61,456 nucleotides of DNA from Verrucomicrobiales bacterium. Its GTDB lineage: Bacteria; Verrucomicrobiota; Verrucomicrobiia; Limisphaerales; CANJXF01. The notes below the pieces were generated by a model. It was not told the DNA's origin and searched no databases. It worked only from the letters and a program-made list of their open reading frames with translations. The stretch is from positions 1 through 61,456 of the forward strand of contig CANJXF010000024.1 of NCBI GenBank assembly GCA_947478865.1, read 5' to 3'. The translations under genes and the position numbers were made by a program. This document shows, piece by piece, positions 46,456 to 54,823 of the stretch (within the stretch, counting starts at the first letter, position 1; every line of letters begins with the position of its first letter).

Positions 46456-47004
46456 TTATCTGGCCACGGGCGGCAGCAAGAGCTCGATTTCTTTCTGCCA
46501 CGCTTTCAGCACCGCATCCGTGGCAAGCCCGTAAGTCGATTTAACGATCTCGCCGCGCTTGTTGATCAGGAACAAATTCGGCACCTTCTTTTTGTAATTA
46601 AACTTGTCCACAACGCTTCCTTCCCAATCGAGCATCACGGGATAGGTGAGACCTTTCTGGAAGTAACTCCGGATTTTCGCGCGAAGTGGCTTTGGGACCG
46701 GGGAAAGATCGGCCACGCCAAAAAAATCGAGCTGGGGACGAAACTGCCCTGCGAGAGGCGTGATCCAATCGGCGATGCCCGCGGATCCTTTATGATCGGA
46801 GACGACGAGGATGAGCGGACGTTCGCGCGGAAATTTAATTTCCTGCATGGCATCGTTTTGATCGGCCAGTTTGAAGCCGGCGACGACTGGTTTCTTCGGC
46901 TCTGCAGCAAAGGCGGAGTGTTGAAAAACCACGAGCGCCACCAGCGCAAAGAGCTGCGCGAAACGTGCGAGGCTGAAAAGCGGGTTTGTCCTTTTTTGAA
47001 TCAT
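46456..47004 (-). CDS. Exported thioredoxin-fold protein without cysteines
   Basis: The ATG at 47004 overlaps the stop of the glycosyltransferase gene (ATGA) and gives 182 residues with a signal segment (FSLARFAQLFALVALVVF, cleavage near AFAAE). The rest follows the AhpC/TlpA thioredoxin fold: GFKLADQNDAMQEIKFP, RPLILVVSDHKGSAGIADWI, LDFFGVADLSPVP, LTYPVMLDWEGSVVDKFNYK, then VPNLFLINKRGEIV with the cis-proline. The CXXC position reads SDHKGSAG, with no cysteine. It therefore cannot act as a thiol oxidoreductase in the normal way. It is the last gene of the carotenoid operon; a binding or structural role is possible but unproven. Confidence 0.7.
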   Translation of the reverse strand: MIQKRTNPLFSLARFAQLFALVALVVFQHSAFAAEPKKPVVAGFKLADQNDAMQEIKFPRERPLILVVSDHKGSAGIADWITPLAGQFRPQLDFFGVADLSPVPKPLRAKIRSYFQKGLTYPVMLDWEGSVVDKFNYKKKVPNLFLINKRGEIVKSTYGLATDAVLKAWQKEIELLLPPVAR

Positions 47005-48143
47005 GATGTCTCGACCCGGATGCTGGGTGAATAGGCGCGGCCTTTCCAGATGGCGGGGCGATTCGCGGCGGCACGAATGAGCGCAAACCATTGAATGCCG
47101 ACGAGTGAGGCGATGCCGAGCGGATGCAACAGGGCACTCGTCCATGACTGTTGGAAACGGATTTTTGCGAAGATTCTTGGCGCCAGCGCCATTAATGCCG
47201 CAAGCAGCGCAACGAGGTTTAGGGTTGAGCTTTGAGCGATTCCTGCCCCCAGCAAAACGAACGGAAGCACCTGTCCTCCGAGCAATAAAACCGTCGTTGG
47301 CAATATGAGCTTTGGCGCGCCCAATCCCGCAGTCGCGTTCTTTGCGAGGCCGCTCCAAACTTCGTGATTCCTGTGATACATCCGGCAGGTCGCGACATCG
47401 GTGGCGTCAAAAAGATCGGTCGCGAAACCGGCTTTGCGAAACGCGCGGGTCAGGTCGAGACCGTCATGAATCGACGGAGCGATGGCGGCGTGTCCACCGG
47501 CGCGGCGGTAATCGTCGGCGCGCATGGCGATCAGTTGGCCGCACGCGGCTCCATAGGCGGGATCCCTCGTTCTTCGCATGCGCGCCATCGGCAGAAAACC
47601 GAGCAGGACGAAATGAATCAGAGGAATCAAGAGATGATCGGAGAACGTTCCCAGCGCCTGGCGCGGCACGCCACTGGCGAGACTGGCTCCGGTGGTTTGC
47701 AGAAAGCGGTTGATTCGTCGCAGGGCGTCGGAGCTGAGTCGCACGTCTGCATCAACGAAAACCAAGTTCGGATTTCGCGCCAACTGCGCGAGCGTTTGGC
47801 AGGCAAAGTTCTTGCCGGACCAACCGGCGGGCAGCGGCGGCGCTGAGGCAAGGCGGACGCGGGAATCGTCTCGGGAAAACTCGGCAACGATCTCCGCCGT
47901 CCGATCCGTGGAATGATCATCGAGCACCAGTACTTCGAAATCAGCAGCGTCGTTTTCGAGAATGGATCGGAGCGTCCCCGGTAAATTGTGTTCTTCGTTC
48001 CGCGCCGGAATCAGCACGGAAATTTTCTCAGCCGCTGGCTCCGATGGGGCCGATGCTGTCCTTCGATACGCGCGGAGATTGAACAGAAAAAGGAGGCAGG
48101 GAATCGCCGCCAGGAACAAAGAAATCCATGCGAGCGTTGTCAT
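47001..48143 (-). CDS. Family 2 glycosyltransferase of the carotenoid operon (CrtQ-like)
   Basis: With the ATG at 48143 the protein has 380 residues. An N-terminal membrane segment (LAWISLFLAAIPCLLFLFNL) is followed by the GT2 domain: EKISVLIPARNEEHNLPGTL, FEVLVLDDHSTDRTAEIVAE, AGWSGKNFACQTLAQLARNP, LVFVDADVRLSSDALRRIN (the DxD), and IHDGLDLTRAFRKAGFATDL. Two or more C-terminal hydrophobic segments follow. This layout is shared by CrtQ of staphylococci and by related carotenoid and hopanoid-associated transferases. Within this operon it likely glucosylates a carotenoic acid. It overlaps both flanking genes by 4 bp. Confidence 0.8.
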   Translation of the reverse strand: MTTLAWISLFLAAIPCLLFLFNLRAYRRTASAPSEPAAEKISVLIPARNEEHNLPGTLRSILENDAADFEVLVLDDHSTDRTAEIVAEFSRDDSRVRLASAPPLPAGWSGKNFACQTLAQLARNPNLVFVDADVRLSSDALRRINRFLQTTGASLASGVPRQALGTFSDHLLIPLIHFVLLGFLPMARMRRTRDPAYGAACGQLIAMRADDYRRAGGHAAIAPSIHDGLDLTRAFRKAGFATDLFDATDVATCRMYHRNHEVWSGLAKNATAGLGAPKLILPTTVLLLGGQVLPFVLLGAGIAQSSTLNLVALLAALMALAPRIFAKIRFQQSWTSALLHPLGIASLVGIQWFALIRAAANRPAIWKGRAYSPSIRVETS

Positions 48144-48994
48144 TTCCCGCTGTGTTCCAGGTTGAATTTGTCTCCGCGCCATGCCGCCATGCCGCGACGC
48201 CACCGATCGTAAAACCAATTCACACCGCCGCCGCTGCGAAATAGAATTTGGAAATCAGCCGGGTTGCGTCGCAGGGATTCCAAGGCGAGCGCGTCCTGTG
48301 TTTCGGCCAGGCGAGTTTCGAAAACTGCCGTCCATTTTGCGGGGGGCAAATCGTGCAGAGCAGGTTCACCGGAGCGGATCGGTGAGCCGAAACGGCAAAG
48401 GATTTCCGGCATTCGTTCTTCCCAGAAGGAGAAGTCGAGGGCGAGCGGGATGAACTTCAGCGCGGCATTGCGCGCGGCGAGATGGCCGAGGCCGGCCTGA
48501 AATTTAAGCGGGCGTTCCCGCGCATCGGCGAAACGTCCTTGCGGCGTCAGCCAAAGCAACGAGCGTGGCGCGTCCAGGATTGTCCCTGACGTGCGAAGAA
48601 ACTTGGCGGCTCCGCGCCACGAACTTTGGTCGATGCCAAACAAGCCGATGCGTCCGAGCATTTTATATTTCTCGAGCGCTTTGGCATCAATCGGAGCGAA
48701 GGATTGATGCTGCGGAAAAAATTGTTGGCTCAGGAAAAGACAAACCAAAGGATCCCACCAGGACGAGTGATTGAGAAAAATCACTGCTGATTCGTCCTTC
48801 AAATCGGGCGGCATGCCTGCGCAGGAAAGGCGGAGCGTGTGGAAATTCTTTTTCAGATAACGAGTCGAGTAACCGGTGAACCACTTCCGCATCCACGCGT
48901 TGATTTTCGGGACATCCCCCTTGAGCGCAGGGCTGCCCGCCGAACGCTTGGCGATCGTTTCCAGAAAATTTTGCGGTGCCGTTTCAGTGTGCAT
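48140..48994 (-). CDS. PlsC-type acyltransferase of the carotenoid operon
   Basis: With the start at 48994 the protein has 284 residues. It carries the 1-acylglycerol-phosphate acyltransferase block I VIFLNHSSWWDPLVCLFLSQ (H-x4-D), block II-like GLFGIDQSSWRGAAKFLRTS, and block III LLWLTPQGRFADARERPLKF. It lacks a clear membrane span except near the active site. In this operon the likely acceptor is the sugar of a glycosylated carotenoid, the step done by CrtO in staphyloxanthin synthesis, although CrtO is from another protein family. It overlaps the upstream desaturase gene by 11 bp and the downstream transferase gene by 4 bp. Confidence 0.8.
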   Translation of the reverse strand: MHTETAPQNFLETIAKRSAGSPALKGDVPKINAWMRKWFTGYSTRYLKKNFHTLRLSCAGMPPDLKDESAVIFLNHSSWWDPLVCLFLSQQFFPQHQSFAPIDAKALEKYKMLGRIGLFGIDQSSWRGAAKFLRTSGTILDAPRSLLWLTPQGRFADARERPLKFQAGLGHLAARNAALKFIPLALDFSFWEERMPEILCRFGSPIRSGEPALHDLPPAKWTAVFETRLAETQDALALESLRRNPADFQILFRSGGGVNWFYDRWRRGMAAWRGDKFNLEHSGK

Positions 48995-50558
48995 GAGCGG
49001 GGGCTTCGGTGCGAACGCGCGGGCTTGAAGCTCTGCGCGGCTTTGCAAATCCATCTTGATCGAGTGAATCAGCGGCGATCCAGCCGGACATCATGACCAT
49101 CGGCATGCCGGGTCCGGGGTGGGCCGCGCCGCCCGCAAGATAAAGTCCGCGAACATCGGGGCTGCGATTGCCGGGCTTGAATGCGCCGAGGAATTTGCCG
49201 TGGCTGGCGAGTCCATAGATCGCGCCGTTCAACACGCGGTAGCGATCGTGAATGTCCTGCGGCGTCAGTGTTTTCTCGGTCACGATGCGGCTTTCCAAGT
49301 CTTTCATGCCGCCGGTCGTGGCGAGTTTGTCCAGAATGACGCGACGATATTCGGGCAACATTTCTTTCCAGTTGTGGTGCGGCCGCAGATAGGGCGTGTG
49401 GACCAGGATGTAGAGGGCTTCGCCGCCTGCGGGCGCGACCTCGGGTTCCGTTTGAGCGGGCGCGCAGACGTAGCAGGTCGGGTCGGGCGCGGGTTCGCCC
49501 TTCTTGTAAATGCTTTCAAATTCCGCGTGCGGATCTTTGGAGAAAACAAAATTGTGATGCAACAGATGTTCGTAGCGCCGATTCAATCCGAGATAAAGGA
49601 CCACGCCAGAGCACGCGGGTTCGTAGGTGCGACGGTCTGCAAATTTCTGCTCCGCGACTCCGCCGAGCAATTTACGATGCGTGCGGACGGAATCGCAATT
49701 CGACACGACCGCCTGCAACGGGATGAATTCGCCGGAGTCGGTTTCCACCCCTGTCACCGCGCCTTCATCGGTCCGAATCCGAGCGACCTGGGTGCTGGAA
49801 CGAATATCGACGCCGAGTTCGCCCGCGAGCTTAAGCAGCGCGTTTGGAACCGCGCGCGTTCCGCCGCGCGGATACCAGATTCCCTCCTCGGTTTGCATGT
49901 GGGCGATGCCGCAAAGAATAGCAGGGGAAGCGTCGGGCGATGAGCCGACGTATTGCGTGAAGTGATCCATCATTTGCGCCACGCGCGCGTCCGGGATGTG
50001 CGAGCGAACTGAGGAGCCAACGCTGCGGCCCATCCGCATCGCGAGCAGGTCGGAGAGCGTGCCGGGTTTTAACGATTTGGAATCCATCATGTCGCGCAAG
50101 CCGCCGATCGAACGCCAGAAGTAATGGCGGCGGGAAATCCCGTGAAGCCGTTCCGACCAGTTGAGAAAACGACGATAACCTGCGCTCGTTTTTTCGTCGG
50201 GCGAAAATGATCGGAGAATTTTCGACATCGCATCGACGTCCGACACGAGGTCCAGCGTGGAACCGTCGGTAAAGAAAGAGCGCCATTGCGGGTCGAGCGG
50301 AATGAGTTCGAGGTAATCGTCCAGGTTGCGATCCGCTTCCTCGAAGATTCGGCGGAGGACGGAAGGCACGGTCAGAATCGTTGGCCCCATGTCGAACCGG
50401 AAACCGCCGTCATTGAGCTGGGCCGCCTTGCCGCCGAGCCAGGGATTGGCTTCGAACAAAACCACGGAATGCCCGCGAGCGGCGAGTGTGCAGGCTGCGG
50501 CTAATCCACCGAGCCCGCCGCCGACAACGCCGACGCGATTCTCTTTGAACATGATCAT
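48984..50558 (-). CDS. CrtI/CrtP-type carotenoid desaturase or oxidase
   Basis: The ATG at 50558, preceded by AAGGAG, gives 524 residues. The FAD-binding N-terminus is VGVVGGGLGGLAAACTLAAR, then NPWLGGKAAQLNDGGFRFDM, GPTILTVPSVLRRIFEE, and the C-terminal carotenoid-desaturase motif GLYLAGGAAHPGPGMPMVMM. Members of this family desaturate phytoene-like substrates or oxidise a terminal methyl group to an aldehyde (CrtP/CrtNb). With a second family member and an aldehyde dehydrogenase in the same operon, one of the two is probably the oxidase. I cannot tell which by eye. It overlaps the aldehyde dehydrogenase gene by 4 bp. Confidence 0.85.
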   Translation of the reverse strand: MIMFKENRVGVVGGGLGGLAAACTLAARGHSVVLFEANPWLGGKAAQLNDGGFRFDMGPTILTVPSVLRRIFEEADRNLDDYLELIPLDPQWRSFFTDGSTLDLVSDVDAMSKILRSFSPDEKTSAGYRRFLNWSERLHGISRRHYFWRSIGGLRDMMDSKSLKPGTLSDLLAMRMGRSVGSSVRSHIPDARVAQMMDHFTQYVGSSPDASPAILCGIAHMQTEEGIWYPRGGTRAVPNALLKLAGELGVDIRSSTQVARIRTDEGAVTGVETDSGEFIPLQAVVSNCDSVRTHRKLLGGVAEQKFADRRTYEPACSGVVLYLGLNRRYEHLLHHNFVFSKDPHAEFESIYKKGEPAPDPTCYVCAPAQTEPEVAPAGGEALYILVHTPYLRPHHNWKEMLPEYRRVILDKLATTGGMKDLESRIVTEKTLTPQDIHDRYRVLNGAIYGLASHGKFLGAFKPGNRSPDVRGLYLAGGAAHPGPGMPMVMMSGWIAADSLDQDGFAKPRRASSPRVRTEAPAHAH

Positions 50559-52093
50559 ATATTCTCCTTCCTCGTCTCTGAATTGAATGACTTGACTGAA
50601 TCTGTTCTCCGCGCCGAGCGCATCAAGCGGATGAGCGCGGCGAGTTTCTGCCGAAGCGAACCGCCGTGTGAAACTTGTAAAAACGCCCTCAGCAAATTGG
50701 CGTCGCCGGGTTGCGGTTCTTGCAAATGCGGGCGCCATTTGCCGCGACGCAGCGCGATCACCTTTGGAGCGGTCATGTCCAACAAACCTTCCGCTCCGCG
50801 CGTTGAGCCGAACCCGCTGCGCTTCCTCCCGCCGAACGGAACGCGCGGATCAGCTGTCGGCACAATGAGGTCGTTGATGGTGACGACGCCTGCGTCGATT
50901 TTTTTTGCCAGAGCCATTGCCGCATTCTCATCGGAGCTGAAAACGCTTGCCCCCAGGGCGAACGGGCATCGCGCCGCGAAATCGAGTGCCTCATTGTCAT
51001 CAGAAACGGTCACCAACGAAATCACCGGCGCGAAAATGTCTGCCTGCAATAGATCCATCATCGGATTCGCGCCGGCTAGAATGAGTGGAGCGCAAAGCTG
51101 GTTTGCGGCGATGAGTTCTCCTTTCACCAGATGGGCGCCTTGCTGTATCGCCCTCTCAATGAGTGGAAGAAGTTTGGCGCTGGTTCGCGTGTCGGGCAGG
51201 GAATGTTCCTTGGCGTGAACCAACTCCGCGAGGCGTCCTTCGAGTTCGGTTGCTCGCGAGTGATGCACAAAAACGCGGCGGGGCGCAATGCAGGTTGCGC
51301 CGGCATTGAGGCGAAGGCCAAAAAGGAGCGAGCGCACGACGAGGTCAAGGTTAGCATCCGCACGCACGAAAACGGCGTCGCAACCGGACAGCTCCATGGT
51401 TGTTGGAATCAATTTGTCCGCGGCGGCGTGCAGAATTTTTTTTCCCGTTTCAGTCGAGCCGGTGAAAATAATTTTGTCCACGCCGGCGGCGATGGCCGCA
51501 TGCGCGGCTTCGGCGGTCTCGGGCAAGACATGGAGCAGAGCTGGATCAAGCCCGGCCCCGGCGAGGAGCTTTGAAAATGCGCTGGCGATGGTGGTGCCGC
51601 CCGGCGCGGGTTTCAGGAGAACGGCATTTCCAGCCGCGAGCGCCTGCAGAGCAATCCCGCCCGGAATGAACAGCGGATAGTTGGAAGGAGAAATGACGAG
51701 CACGACACCCAGCGGGTCACGGCGAATTTCGGTGCGAGTGCGTGTGAGCCACACCGGACGCTGTTTGCTCCCCAACTTTTTTGGCGCAAGAATGTTTGCG
51801 GCGCTGCGTTCTAAAAATTGGCAGGCGTCGGCCAGCGGAATGATTTGCGCGCTGAGAATTTCGGCTTCCGGGCGGCCCGTTGTTTTGCTGATGAGTGTCG
51901 CCAGCGCAGCGGACTTTTCCGCCAGAGAATGACGAAAGCGTTTCAGCGCGGAGAGCCGGTTTGAAATCGAAAGGCCCGCCCAGCGTTGCTGGGCTCGCCG
52001 CATCCTGCCGAGGACGATGGGCAAATGATCGCCGCGGAAAATCGTAATCTCGTGCTGCGGTTCTTCGATTCCTGCGTTTACGTCCAGTTTCAT
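50555..52093 (-). CDS. Aldehyde dehydrogenase, probable carotenoid aldehyde oxidiser
   Basis: The 512-residue protein (ATG at 52093) belongs to the NAD(P)-dependent ALDH superfamily: PLGVVLVISPSNYPLFIPGG, GNAVLLKPAPGGTTIASAFS, IIFTGSTETGKKILHAA, TTMELSGCDAVFVRADANLD with the general-base Glu, LNAGATCIAPRRVFVH with the catalytic Cys, and PRVPFGGRKRSGFGSTRGAE. Its place between two desaturase/oxidase genes points to conversion of an apo-carotenal to the carotenoic acid, as done by AldH/CrtNc in C30 pathways. It starts 13 bp after the upstream gene and overlaps the next by 4 bp. The last 50 residues, basic and Ser/Arg-rich, exceed the usual ALDH end. Confidence 0.85.
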   Translation of the reverse strand: MKLDVNAGIEEPQHEITIFRGDHLPIVLGRMRRAQQRWAGLSISNRLSALKRFRHSLAEKSAALATLISKTTGRPEAEILSAQIIPLADACQFLERSAANILAPKKLGSKQRPVWLTRTRTEIRRDPLGVVLVISPSNYPLFIPGGIALQALAAGNAVLLKPAPGGTTIASAFSKLLAGAGLDPALLHVLPETAEAAHAAIAAGVDKIIFTGSTETGKKILHAAADKLIPTTMELSGCDAVFVRADANLDLVVRSLLFGLRLNAGATCIAPRRVFVHHSRATELEGRLAELVHAKEHSLPDTRTSAKLLPLIERAIQQGAHLVKGELIAANQLCAPLILAGANPMMDLLQADIFAPVISLVTVSDDNEALDFAARCPFALGASVFSSDENAAMALAKKIDAGVVTINDLIVPTADPRVPFGGRKRSGFGSTRGAEGLLDMTAPKVIALRRGKWRPHLQEPQPGDANLLRAFLQVSHGGSLRQKLAALIRLMRSARRTDSVKSFNSETRKENI

Positions 52094-52106
52094 AACGTGG
52101 CTCCGG

Positions 52107-53657
52107 TCATGACATTGCCATCTCCTTTTCGCTGAGGGATTGAGCCCGCGTTGGAGGATTCGAATTGTTCCACGGGACGGGAATATCAAGATCGTTGAGC
52201 AGCAACTTGGAGCTGATTCGCGCCGATTCAAAAATGACGGGTAGACCGCTGCCGGGATGCGTGCCGCCGCCGACGAGATACACGCCGTCGAGATCTTCGA
52301 AACGATTGTTCGGGCGGAGGTGGAGCATTTGATCGAGGGTGTGCGCGAGATTAAAGGTGGCGCCGCGGTAAATTTCATAGCGCGAATCCCAATCGGAAGG
52401 GGTGACAATGCGCTCGTAACGAATCCGTTTTTCAACATCGGCGTAACCGGCTTTCTTAATTTGCCGGAGCAGGAGATCGCGATAGCGGGCGCGCTCCTTG
52501 TTCCAGTCCACGTTCGGATGCTGATGCGTCACGGGAGCAAGAACGTAGAGCGTGGAATGATCGCGCGGCGCGAGGCCGGGATCAGTCACGCACGCATTTT
52601 GCACGTAGAAACTCGGGTCGTTGCTCAAGACGTGCTGGTTCTCGATTTCGTCGAGATTGCGCGCGTAATCCTCGGCGATATGGATCGTGTGATGCGGGAG
52701 GTCGTAGCGGCCTTCGATGCCGAGATACATCATGAAGGTCGAACAGGAATATTTTTTCTTGGCCAATTTCTTGTCGGTCCAACGATTGCGGAGATGATCT
52801 GGAACGAGTTTTTGCATCGCACGCGCAAAGTCGGCATTGACCACAACGGAATCCGCATTGTGAACGCTGGTTTCCGTGCGGACGCCCACCGCCCGTTTGC
52901 CCGCAAATAAAATTTCTTTAACCGGGTCATTCAGCGAGATCTCGACACCGAGCCGTTCGGCCACGCGCGCCATGGCTGCCGTGATTGCGGCGCACCCGCC
53001 GATCGGATGGAAGACGCCGTATTCGTATTCCAAGAAGCTGAGAATGCTGAACAAGCTTGGGCACCGGAATGGCGACATTCCGAGGTATTTCGACTGGAAA
53101 CAAAACGCGAGGCGCACGCGCTCGTCGGTGAAGAAGCGTTTGAGGTAGGTGTCCACGGATTGATGCGGACGCAGCACCATCAACATCTTGATCAGACGGG
53201 TTTGCACCAGGTCTTGCCATCGGAGAAAGGCGCTTTCGAGACATGGCTCCATGAGCTTCAGCTTGGTGCGATTCTCGTCGAGGAAGCGTCGGAATCCGGG
53301 CGCGTCGGCTGGCGAGAGTCCCGCAATTTCCTGTTCCATTTTGGCGATGTCGGGCGTGGCATCGATTCGTCCGCCGGAACCAAATTGAATTCGATATTGC
53401 GGATCGAGGCGGACCATTTCGACTTCGTCGCGCAGGGAGGTTCCCGCGACGCGAAATATCTCGTCGAGCACGCGCGGATATAGAAAAAAGGTTGGGCCCA
53501 GATCAAATTTGTATCCATCCGACTCAAGGCTCGAGGTGCGTCCGCCGAGGACGGGAAGGCGTTCGAGAATTTTCACGCGCACGCCCGAGGCGGCAAGGAG
53601 GATAGCTGAAGCAAGTCCGCCCGGCCCGGCGCCGATGATGATGGCTTGTTTAGTCAT
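52107..53657 (-). CDS. CrtN/CrtI-type carotenoid desaturase, first gene of the operon
   Basis: The ATG at 53657 gives 516 residues: FAD motif AIIIGAGPGGLASAILLAAS, RLPVLGGRTSSLESDGYKFD, LGPTFFLYPRVLDEIF, the mid-region FQSKYLGMSPFRCPSLFSIL, then EYEYGVFHPIGGCAAITAAM and the C-terminal GVYLVGGGTHPGSGLPVIFE. These are features of diapophytoene/phytoene desaturases. Being promoter-proximal it probably makes the conjugated chain, but C30 and C40 substrates cannot be distinguished by eye. Its promoter region holds TGTCTAA repeats shared with the divergent CarH-type gene. No synthase gene adjoins it. Confidence 0.88.
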   Translation of the reverse strand: MTKQAIIIGAGPGGLASAILLAASGVRVKILERLPVLGGRTSSLESDGYKFDLGPTFFLYPRVLDEIFRVAGTSLRDEVEMVRLDPQYRIQFGSGGRIDATPDIAKMEQEIAGLSPADAPGFRRFLDENRTKLKLMEPCLESAFLRWQDLVQTRLIKMLMVLRPHQSVDTYLKRFFTDERVRLAFCFQSKYLGMSPFRCPSLFSILSFLEYEYGVFHPIGGCAAITAAMARVAERLGVEISLNDPVKEILFAGKRAVGVRTETSVHNADSVVVNADFARAMQKLVPDHLRNRWTDKKLAKKKYSCSTFMMYLGIEGRYDLPHHTIHIAEDYARNLDEIENQHVLSNDPSFYVQNACVTDPGLAPRDHSTLYVLAPVTHQHPNVDWNKERARYRDLLLRQIKKAGYADVEKRIRYERIVTPSDWDSRYEIYRGATFNLAHTLDQMLHLRPNNRFEDLDGVYLVGGGTHPGSGLPVIFESARISSKLLLNDLDIPVPWNNSNPPTRAQSLSEKEMAMS

Positions 53658-53697
53658 AGGTTGAAATTTAACGGCGCAACCGCGCGCTCTTGTTGAT

Positions 53698-53742
53698 ACA
53701 ATGTCTAAGGTATGTCTAAATGTCAATAGTTTGTCTAAATTC
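53698..53742 (-). promoter_or_regulatory. Promoter and repeat operator of the carotenoid operon
   Basis: On the plus strand TGTCTAA occurs at 53702, 53713 and 53732 and TGTCAAT at 53721. The first two are 11 bp apart and the last two are 11 bp apart. On the minus strand TGTCAA reads TTGACA, a perfect -35 box (53726-53721), followed 17 bp later by CATTGT (53703-53698) as a weak -10. The repeats therefore cover the promoter from -35 to -10. The 11-bp direct-repeat spacing is the form of operator known for CarH. Confidence 0.7.
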
Positions 53743-53837
53743 AGTCGGCAAACCTGTTTTTCCGGATCACGAAAGCATGTTTTAGATGTGAATTTTTGGT
53801 TTGTCGGCTTGCCTAACTGCGATGCGGAAATCAGGCC

Positions 53838-53878
53838 TTGCCAAATCAGGGTGGAGGCGTCTAAGATATGTCTAATTT
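53838..53878 (+). promoter_or_regulatory. Promoter and repeat operator of the carH-like gene
   Basis: TTGCCA (53838-53843) and TAAGAT (53862-53867) lie 18 bp apart and would start transcription just before the ATG at 53879. A pair of repeats, CGTCTAA at 53858 and TGTCTAA at 53869, again 11 bp apart, covers the -10 and the start point. No Shine-Dalgarno sequence precedes the ATG and an in-frame TAA lies two codons upstream, so the mRNA may be leaderless. The pattern suggests autorepression. Confidence 0.6.
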
Positions 53879-54823
53879 ATGGCAGATGCCCATCATGCAA
53901 TCAAAGCAGTTGCTCGCCGCACCGGTTTGAGCGCGCACGTCATTCGGATTTGGGAAAAACGCTACGGTGCGGTTGAGCCCGAGCGAACGGAGACGAACCG
54001 CCGGCTTTATTCCGATGAGCAGATTGAGCGGCTGGTTCTTTTGCGCGACATCACGCAAGCGGGCCACAGCATTGGCAACGTAGCGAAGTTGCCGACGGCG
54101 AAGTTGCGCAAGCTGGCTGCGGAATCTCCGGGTGAAACCGGACGTCCCGCTCAATTGATTAATGGCGTGATCGCAACGCCGTCTTACCTCGACGAATGCA
54201 TTGCTGCGGTGAAGTCGCTCGATTCTCGCGCCCTGGAAAAGGTGCTGGAGCGCGCGGTCACGGTGCTCGGCTCGCAGGGGCTCTTGCAGCATGTCGTCGC
54301 GCCGCTGGCTCAGAATCTGGGCGAGTTATGGCGCGATGGAATTATCACCGCGGCCCACGAACATCTGGCGAGCGTTGTCCTGCGCGTTTTTCTTGGGCAA
54401 GCGGCCAAGCCGTTTGCGGGGACCGAGAATGGTCCGGTGCTCATGGTTGCCACTCCGGCGGGCCAATTGCATGAGCTCGGGGCGTTGCTTGTCGCGGCGG
54501 CGGCGGCCAACATGGGCTGGCATGTCATCTATCTTGGCGCGAGCTTGCCCGCTCCGGAAATTGCGGGTGCTGCGAAAGTGAGCAATGCGCGAGCGGTGGC
54601 GCTCAGCTTGGTTTATCCCGAGGACGATTCGCGTCTCGAAGGGGAGTTGAAACGTCTGCGCCAATTCCTGCCCGCCGAAGTCAGCCTGATCGCCGGCGGT
54701 CGTGCCATGCCGGGTTACGGCGCTGTACTGGAAGAAATTGGCGCGCTCCAGATCAAGGATCTTTCCCACCTTTGCTCGACGCTGGACGACCTTCGCAAAC
54801 CGACAAAGAAAGCAAAACAATGA
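53879..54823 (+). CDS. carH: CarH-type MerR regulator with B12-binding photoreceptor domain
   Basis: A 314-residue protein. Residues 7-75 form a MerR DNA-binding domain (IKAVARRTGLSAHVIRIWEK, RRLYSDEQIERL). Residues about 95-180 form the helical cap, with W151 followed nine residues later by E161-H162, the Wx9EH signature of CarH/CarA photoreceptors. Residues 185-310 form the cobalamin-binding fold, with His198 in GQLHELG as the lower ligand and VIYLGASLPAPEIAGAA. In known cases adenosylcobalamin makes a repressor tetramer in the dark that falls apart in light. The usual acidic residue two before His198 is Gln here, and the residue after W151 is Arg. It diverges from the carotenoid operon. 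The stop overlaps the next start (ATGA). Confidence 0.88.
   Translation: MADAHHAIKAVARRTGLSAHVIRIWEKRYGAVEPERTETNRRLYSDEQIERLVLLRDITQAGHSIGNVAKLPTAKLRKLAAESPGETGRPAQLINGVIATPSYLDECIAAVKSLDSRALEKVLERAVTVLGSQGLLQHVVAPLAQNLGELWRDGIITAAHEHLASVVLRVFLGQAAKPFAGTENGPVLMVATPAGQLHELGALLVAAAAANMGWHVIYLGASLPAPEIAGAAKVSNARAVALSLVYPEDDSRLEGELKRLRQFLPAEVSLIAGGRAMPGYGAVLEEIGALQIKDLSHLCSTLDDLRKPTKKAKQ

Follow-up and report, generated by a model that had tools for sequence, protein, structure and literature searches.

CarH is a vitamin B12-based light sensor which keeps the genes for carotenoids, pigments serving as a sunscreen, switched off in the dark. Published CarH operators consist of tandem 11-bp repeats of the form nnnnTnnACAn, with TTGACA inside one of them (PMC9304148, PMC8156234). 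Three repeats are given for T. thermophilus, four for B. megaterium, and up to five repeats or pseudo-repeats for Myxococcales (PMC9304148, PMC8156234). The operator on T. thermophilus pTT27 was checked directly as a positive control and reads TGTACA-11-TTGACA-11-TATACA before carH, that is, three repeats in a single uniform 11-bp series oriented with carH. For M. xanthus and the Cystobacterineae, the CarH-CarA operator is described as a tandem array of five 11-bp repeats or pseudo-repeats sharing one register, likewise with TTGACA inside one, and it serves a single promoter that drives a large operon; in Cystobacter, each dimer occupies two tandem repeats, with cooperativity between two dimers (PMC9304148). 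For the CarH/LitR operator of B. megaterium, which is compared here by description, PMC9304148 summarises four 11-bp repeats in tandem, overlapping the -35 or -10 element. In the open literature searched, no paper was found that names CarH together with Verrucomicrobia.

The window analysed here is a stretch of 61,456 nucleotides from a Verrucomicrobiales bacterium (GCA_947478865.1, contig CANJXF010000024.1). It harbors carH and, in divergent orientation, a crt operon whose first gene, a crtI-family desaturase, has its start codon at 53657 on the minus strand; the intergenic region between the two genes comprises 221 bp (Table 1). The gene order at 47001-53657 (minus strand) presumably resembles that of a staphyloxanthin-type carotenoid pathway.

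A sequence-only reading of the window had reported TGTCTAA, or a one-base variant, at six intergenic positions, always as pairs exactly 11 bp apart. Exact TGTCTAA is present on the plus strand at 53702, 53713, 53732 and 53869, and the one-base variant CGTCTAA at 53858, but 53721 reads TGTCAAT, has two mismatches and qualifies only under the looser motif TGTnnA. The 11-bp distances hold for 53702/53713, 53721/53732 and 53858/53869; the first of these was nevertheless rejected as an operator pair owing to its poor conservation in relatives, and one repeat had been overlooked, TGTTGA at 53691, which lies 11 bp from 53702. Each of the seven repeats matches TGTnnA or is one base off; on the crt strand, this motif reads TnnACA. 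Their start-to-start spacings are 11, 11, 8 and 11 bp on the crt side and 11 bp in the carH-side pair, R2 being in 11-bp register with R0 and R1 and 8 bp from R3. Three exact 11-bp TGTnnA pairs within 221 bp compare with 0.006 expected (mean of dinucleotide shuffles), and none of 5000 such shuffles reached three pairs, even if any single spacing from 7 to 30 bp was allowed. A search of the organism's own 4.4-Mb genome for paired TGTCTAA, as the earlier reading had proposed, returned no second occurrence with up to one mismatch, and a pattern search of the same genome for the four-repeat layout with up to three mismatches found no second copy.

Table 1. Coordinates of repeats, predicted promoter elements and genes; positions refer to the window unless a locus is named.
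Feature	Position	Strand	Remark
R0, CarH-type repeat, + TGTTGA / - TCAACA (TnnACA)	53691..53696	-	near predicted crt start point; from sequence
R1, CarH-type repeat, + TGTCTA(A) / - (T)TAGACA	53702..53707	-	overlaps predicted crt -10
R2, extra CarH-type repeat, + TGTCTAA	53713..53718	-	within promoter spacer
R3, CarH-type repeat, - TTGACA = predicted crt -35	53721..53726	-	
R4, CarH-type repeat, + TGTCTAA	53732..53737	-	upstream of crt -35
C1, degenerate CarH-type repeat, + CGTCTA	53858..53863	-	carH side, over predicted -10
C2, CarH-type repeat, + TGTCTA	53869..53874	-	10 bp before carH start codon; over predicted start point
Predicted crt -10, CATTGT, 17-bp spacer	53698..53703	-	deduced from conserved position
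Predicted carH promoter, TTGCCA, 18 bp, TAAGAT	53838..53867	+	consensus scan, 9/12 matches
carH	53879..54823	+	MerR-type DNA-binding domain and B12-binding domain; Wx9EH and QxHxxG motifs
crtI-family carotenoid desaturase, first gene of divergent crt operon	52107..53657	-	TIGR02734, 5.6e-163
Remainder of crt operon: aldehyde dehydrogenase, second crtI/crtD-type desaturase, acyltransferase, glycosyltransferase	47001..52106	-	start codons approximate
Fasciclin-domain genes with four-repeat operator	L209:3427-3921, L210:1-614, L211:3343-3882, L212:215-853, L216:3344-3946		

The core motif is not new, since the TGTnnA that all repeats fit is TnnACA, the published CarH repeat, read on the other strand. 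The earlier suggestion of a new sequence version of the operator had to be dropped: TTAGACA falls within the usual range of TnnACA, and both M. xanthus and T. thermophilus were already known to have TTGACA within a repeat. The interpretation of the repeats as a CarH operator, on the other hand, is strongly backed by the match to nnnnTnnACAn as well as by conservation in relatives. The observation as a whole is partly confirmed, being mostly right and far above chance. The novelty is the layout, which that reading missed: in place of a uniform 11-bp series there are two 11-bp pairs, set 19 bp apart. As in T. thermophilus, TnnACA direct repeats at 11 bp overlap the target promoter, the -35 element TTGACA lies in a repeat, and the operator adjoins carH and carotenoid genes. 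Unlike there, the repeats of the window (11, 11, 8, 11) do not form one uniform series; they comprise two pairs offset by 19 bp and a separate pair over the carH start in the opposite sense. Judged by sequence, they are of the known CarH kind and differ in register.

The product of carH combines an N-terminal MerR-type DNA-binding domain (MerR_1, PF13411, 4.1e-17) with a C-terminal B12-binding domain (PF02607, 1.7e-7; PF02310, 2.5e-10) and aligns to the T. thermophilus CarH structures 5c8d and 3whp over residues 7-310 (5c8d, 1.5e-30). Its top NCBIfam match is NF052513 CarH with 128 bits; this misses the equivalog cut-off of 400 bits, which is a database threshold and not a biochemical definition, and equivalence to that narrow model is therefore not claimed. 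Wx9EH is present (W151, nine residues, E161 and H162), H198 lies within QLHELG, and the equivalents of W131, E141, H142 and H177 are found in the protein and near-invariant among 82 homologues of the order. Set against the motif ExHx2Gx41SxV/Tx22-27GG (PMC8156234), the protein shows QLHELG, 41 residues, SLV, 27 residues and GG; the Q replacing the first E of ExHxxG is invariant in 15 aligned order homologues. The light signature GxxW, EH, GxxH and GxxxP (PMC11796333) appears as GELW, EH, GQLH and GASLP.

Residue 152 (54332-54334) is Arg where T. thermophilus CarH has His132, and among the 82 order homologues this position holds Arg in 59 and His in 2. Owing to this Arg, the light-driven step may differ from that of T. 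thermophilus CarH, in whose light state His132 comes to serve as the upper ligand (PMC10442372), and by analogy the exchange suggests a different late step in the light response. The position is variable among light-responsive B12 domains and not family-defining (PMC11796333). It is also Arg in CtMerR, a light-responsive regulator with a B12 domain that is a tetramer in the dark and a monomer in the light, although the DNA-binding domain and presumed site of CtMerR differ from those of CarH (PMC11796333); as this protein still dissociates in the light, Arg is no argument against light sensing. No carH homologue besides the one in the window was found in the organism's own genome. Across the order, a protein search at E 1e-3 gave matches in 227 of 320 genomes, of which the weaker ones need not be CarH. 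The CarH of locus L006 carries Cys for the cobalt-binding His177 and retains the other signature residues and crt-type repeats.

A perfect TTGACA -35 box within a crt-side repeat, as reported earlier, is indeed present on the minus strand of 53721-53726. The -10 element CATTGT is weak, matching the consensus only at A2, T3 and T6, and the crt promoter is therefore a prediction only; a consensus promoter scan did not find this element, and its position is kept as CAnnnT in the -35-anchored alignment of relatives. Given the 17-bp promoter spacer, R3 is the -35 element, R1 overlaps the first two -10 bases and R0 lies at the start point. On the carH side, the prediction is weak on its own because 0.7 matches of such quality are expected by chance; with it, C1 falls on the predicted -10 and C2 on the predicted start, in agreement with the earlier description of this pair. 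C2 at 53869 stands 10 bp before the carH ATG at 53879, and the same position is occupied in many relatives. Since the last repeat starts this close to the ATG, the carH mRNA probably has little or no leader.

Conservation was tested at the level of the order (Verrucomicrobiota, Pedosphaera / subdivision 3 group) with 89 carH upstream regions, reduced to 87 without near-copies (shared 12-mers at most 17%). Pairs of TGTnnA at 11 bp occur 152 times in 73 of the 87 regions, compared with 0.6 expected from shuffles (largest value 3). Further spacing peaks were seen at 19 (31 regions), 18 (16), 30 (36), 29 (14) and 22 bp (24). The opposite orientation (TnnACA on the carH strand) gave no 11-bp signal in these 87 regions, and no spacing peak at 11 bp appeared in a further 831 kb taken from elsewhere in the same loci. 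Perhaps carH is not first in its operon, or its start is misplaced, in the 14 regions lacking an exact pair. With one mismatch allowed, the carH-side pair is found in 64 of 84 regions, the second repeat mostly 10 or 11 bp before the start codon. Loss of the repeats from relatives that keep the gene pair would have spoken against an operator; at each of the ten loci where crtI and carH are divergent, one to three 11-bp pairs are retained. The carH genes of L091, L092 and L126 match the Verrucomicrobiota order, and the titles of these metagenome-assembled genomes (Klebsiella, Akkermansia or Proteobacteria) look wrong. At L140, L144 and L151 (KSB1, Gemmatimonadota and Latescibacterota), the carH-upstream repeats run in the opposite sense and are of the TTGACA-11-TAGACA type, as in T. 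thermophilus; the pairs of the KSB1 locus L140 are likewise 19 bp apart, a single case.

For the crt side, 57 upstream regions were anchored on TGTCAA, the TTGACA -35 on the other strand. The anchor rule gave weight to +11 and to -19/-18, so that the anchored percentages are somewhat favoured, and a pattern search served as an independent check. The alignment shows T at -19 in 85% of the regions, a partner at -30 and TGTYTAA at +11. TGTnnA lies at +11, corresponding to R4, in 37 of the 57 relatives; an R1-type repeat 19 or 18 bp from the -35 repeat, with its first T in 85%, is seen in 34, and an R0-type TGTnnA at 30 or 29 bp in 32. R2-type repeats, at 8 or 7 bp, are present in 13, and in six of the nine closest relatives (carH identity at least 70%). 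With up to one mismatch, the 47-bp pattern of pair, 19 bp and pair was matched 41 times, in 38 of 313 genomes, versus five matches for the reversed pattern; the window matches with no mismatch. The 22 TGTCAA sites elsewhere in the same loci never have such partner repeats. From the anchored alignment, the pattern search and these partnerless sites, it follows that the conserved crt-side operator consists of R0+R1 (53691, 53702), over the -10 and start of the predicted promoter, and R3+R4 (53721, 53732), over its -35. The conserved layout is thus two 11-bp pairs with 19 (or 18) bp between the facing repeats. This unusual split layout, with repeats on both the -35 and the -10 part of the promoter, is, judging by these alignments, common to a whole order of mostly uncultured Verrucomicrobiota.

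We consider it highly probable from this sequence evidence that the repeats are the DNA sites of the adjacent CarH, through which AdoCbl-loaded CarH would repress both divergent promoters in the dark and release them in the light. Short T-rich motifs are to be expected in A+T-rich intergenic DNA, and the repeats might then be chance or functionless simple sequence; with no shuffle in 5000 reaching the window, 152 pairs against 0.6 across the relatives, and flat control DNA, the likelihood of this is negligible, and a chance origin is ruled out by the comparative statistics. The repeats could also serve another regulator, such as a B12-independent CarA-like protein or an unrelated repressor, as MerR relatives are numerous and the assignment to CarH rests on sequence. 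We regard this as highly improbable: the repeats accompany carH irrespective of its divergent neighbour (crtI, fasciclin or sigma factor), they match the CarH repeat, carH is the sole homologue found in the genome, and its product has the Wx9EH motif, which CarA is without.

More weight is due to an explanation in which CarH binds but the 19-bp interval is merely promoter geometry: repeats would lie at the -35 and -10 because repression acts there, with CarH occupying them as independent units, or binding only the in-register repeats R0-R1-R2, TTGACA being just the -35 box. The interval of 19 or 18 bp is what a promoter spacer of 17 or 16 bp would produce, and since a presumed 16-bp spacer goes with an interval of 18 bp, the interval is at least in part a product of promoter geometry. 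Moreover, R0, R1 and R2 of the window follow one another in steps of 11 and 11 bp, as the T. thermophilus repeats do, and in a subgroup of relatives (L014, L020-L022, L025 and L028) a TGTCAA with a mostly weak outer partner has next to it two or three repeats that share one 11-bp register. R2, however, is absent from most relatives, whereas the T, G and T of R4 are conserved to 92-98% across the 57 anchored loci, values which the choice of anchor somewhat favours. Since R4 is the outer partner of the -35 repeat, its conservation marks the -35 pair itself as a site. On balance, we give the purely geometric explanation an appreciable chance that stays clearly below even. The motifs and their statistics, their conservation, their position relative to the -35 box and the signature residues of the regulator are direct observations.

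If the repeats are CarH sites, 53691-53737 and 53858-53874 would represent two operators of the neighbouring regulator. In the dark, each TnnACA repeat would be contacted by a single DNA-binding domain of an AdoCbl-loaded CarH oligomer. At the crt promoter, a head-to-tail dimer would sit on R3+R4 at the -35 and another on R0+R1 at the -10 and start, the two probably being halves of one tetramer, or else two cooperating dimers; on the carH side, a CarH pair would cover the -10 and start point. RNA polymerase would thereby be kept off both promoters, leaving the carotenoid genes and carH off. Light would break the Co-C bond of AdoCbl, CarH would fall apart and vacate the repeats, and both transcripts would be made. 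For the window CarH, we infer binding, oligomeric state, repression and light response by analogy with the described proteins.

A more far-reaching version holds that CarH of this order works in an undescribed DNA geometry. Two head-to-tail dimers on 11-bp pairs 19 (or 18) bp apart, about a quarter turn off the usual face, would clamp the -35 and the -10/start at once; CarH of the Arg type would release without a bis-His state, and the regulon would reach a sigma-70 factor and fasciclin-domain surface proteins. In this full form the proposal is speculative and rather unlikely. For this large order of Verrucomicrobiota, most of it uncultured, the results provide an operator layout and a CarH recognition rule that can be tested. 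The split-register operator joins the known uniform ones and bears on how a CarH tetramer or pair of dimers grips DNA.

The gene divergent from carH was classified for 84 regions by grouping according to similarity, with only representatives being domain-scanned: crtI accounts for 10 regions, fasciclin-domain proteins for about 21 and RpoS/RpoD-type sigma-70 factors for about 32. At least one 11-bp pair is present at 26 of the 32 loci facing a sigma factor (L027, L034, L039 and about 29 other loci of the order), which suggests by sequence that a group-2/RpoS-like sigma-70 factor is under light control in these Verrucomicrobiota. The organism's own genome yielded no fasciclin gene, and its nearest sigma-70 homologue (49%) is located away from carH. 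A literature search for LitR and fasciclin returned only unrelated matches. The proposed light-controlled targets, fasciclin-domain proteins and possibly the sigma-70 factor, would take B12 light sensing beyond carotenoids in these bacteria. In five genomes, the four-repeat operator also stands 31-119 bp upstream of fasciclin-domain genes away from carH (Table 1). It is further found at about 57-66 bp from the predicted start of PQQ/BamB-like beta-propeller genes in two genomes (L214:2685-3944, L215:3483-4730).
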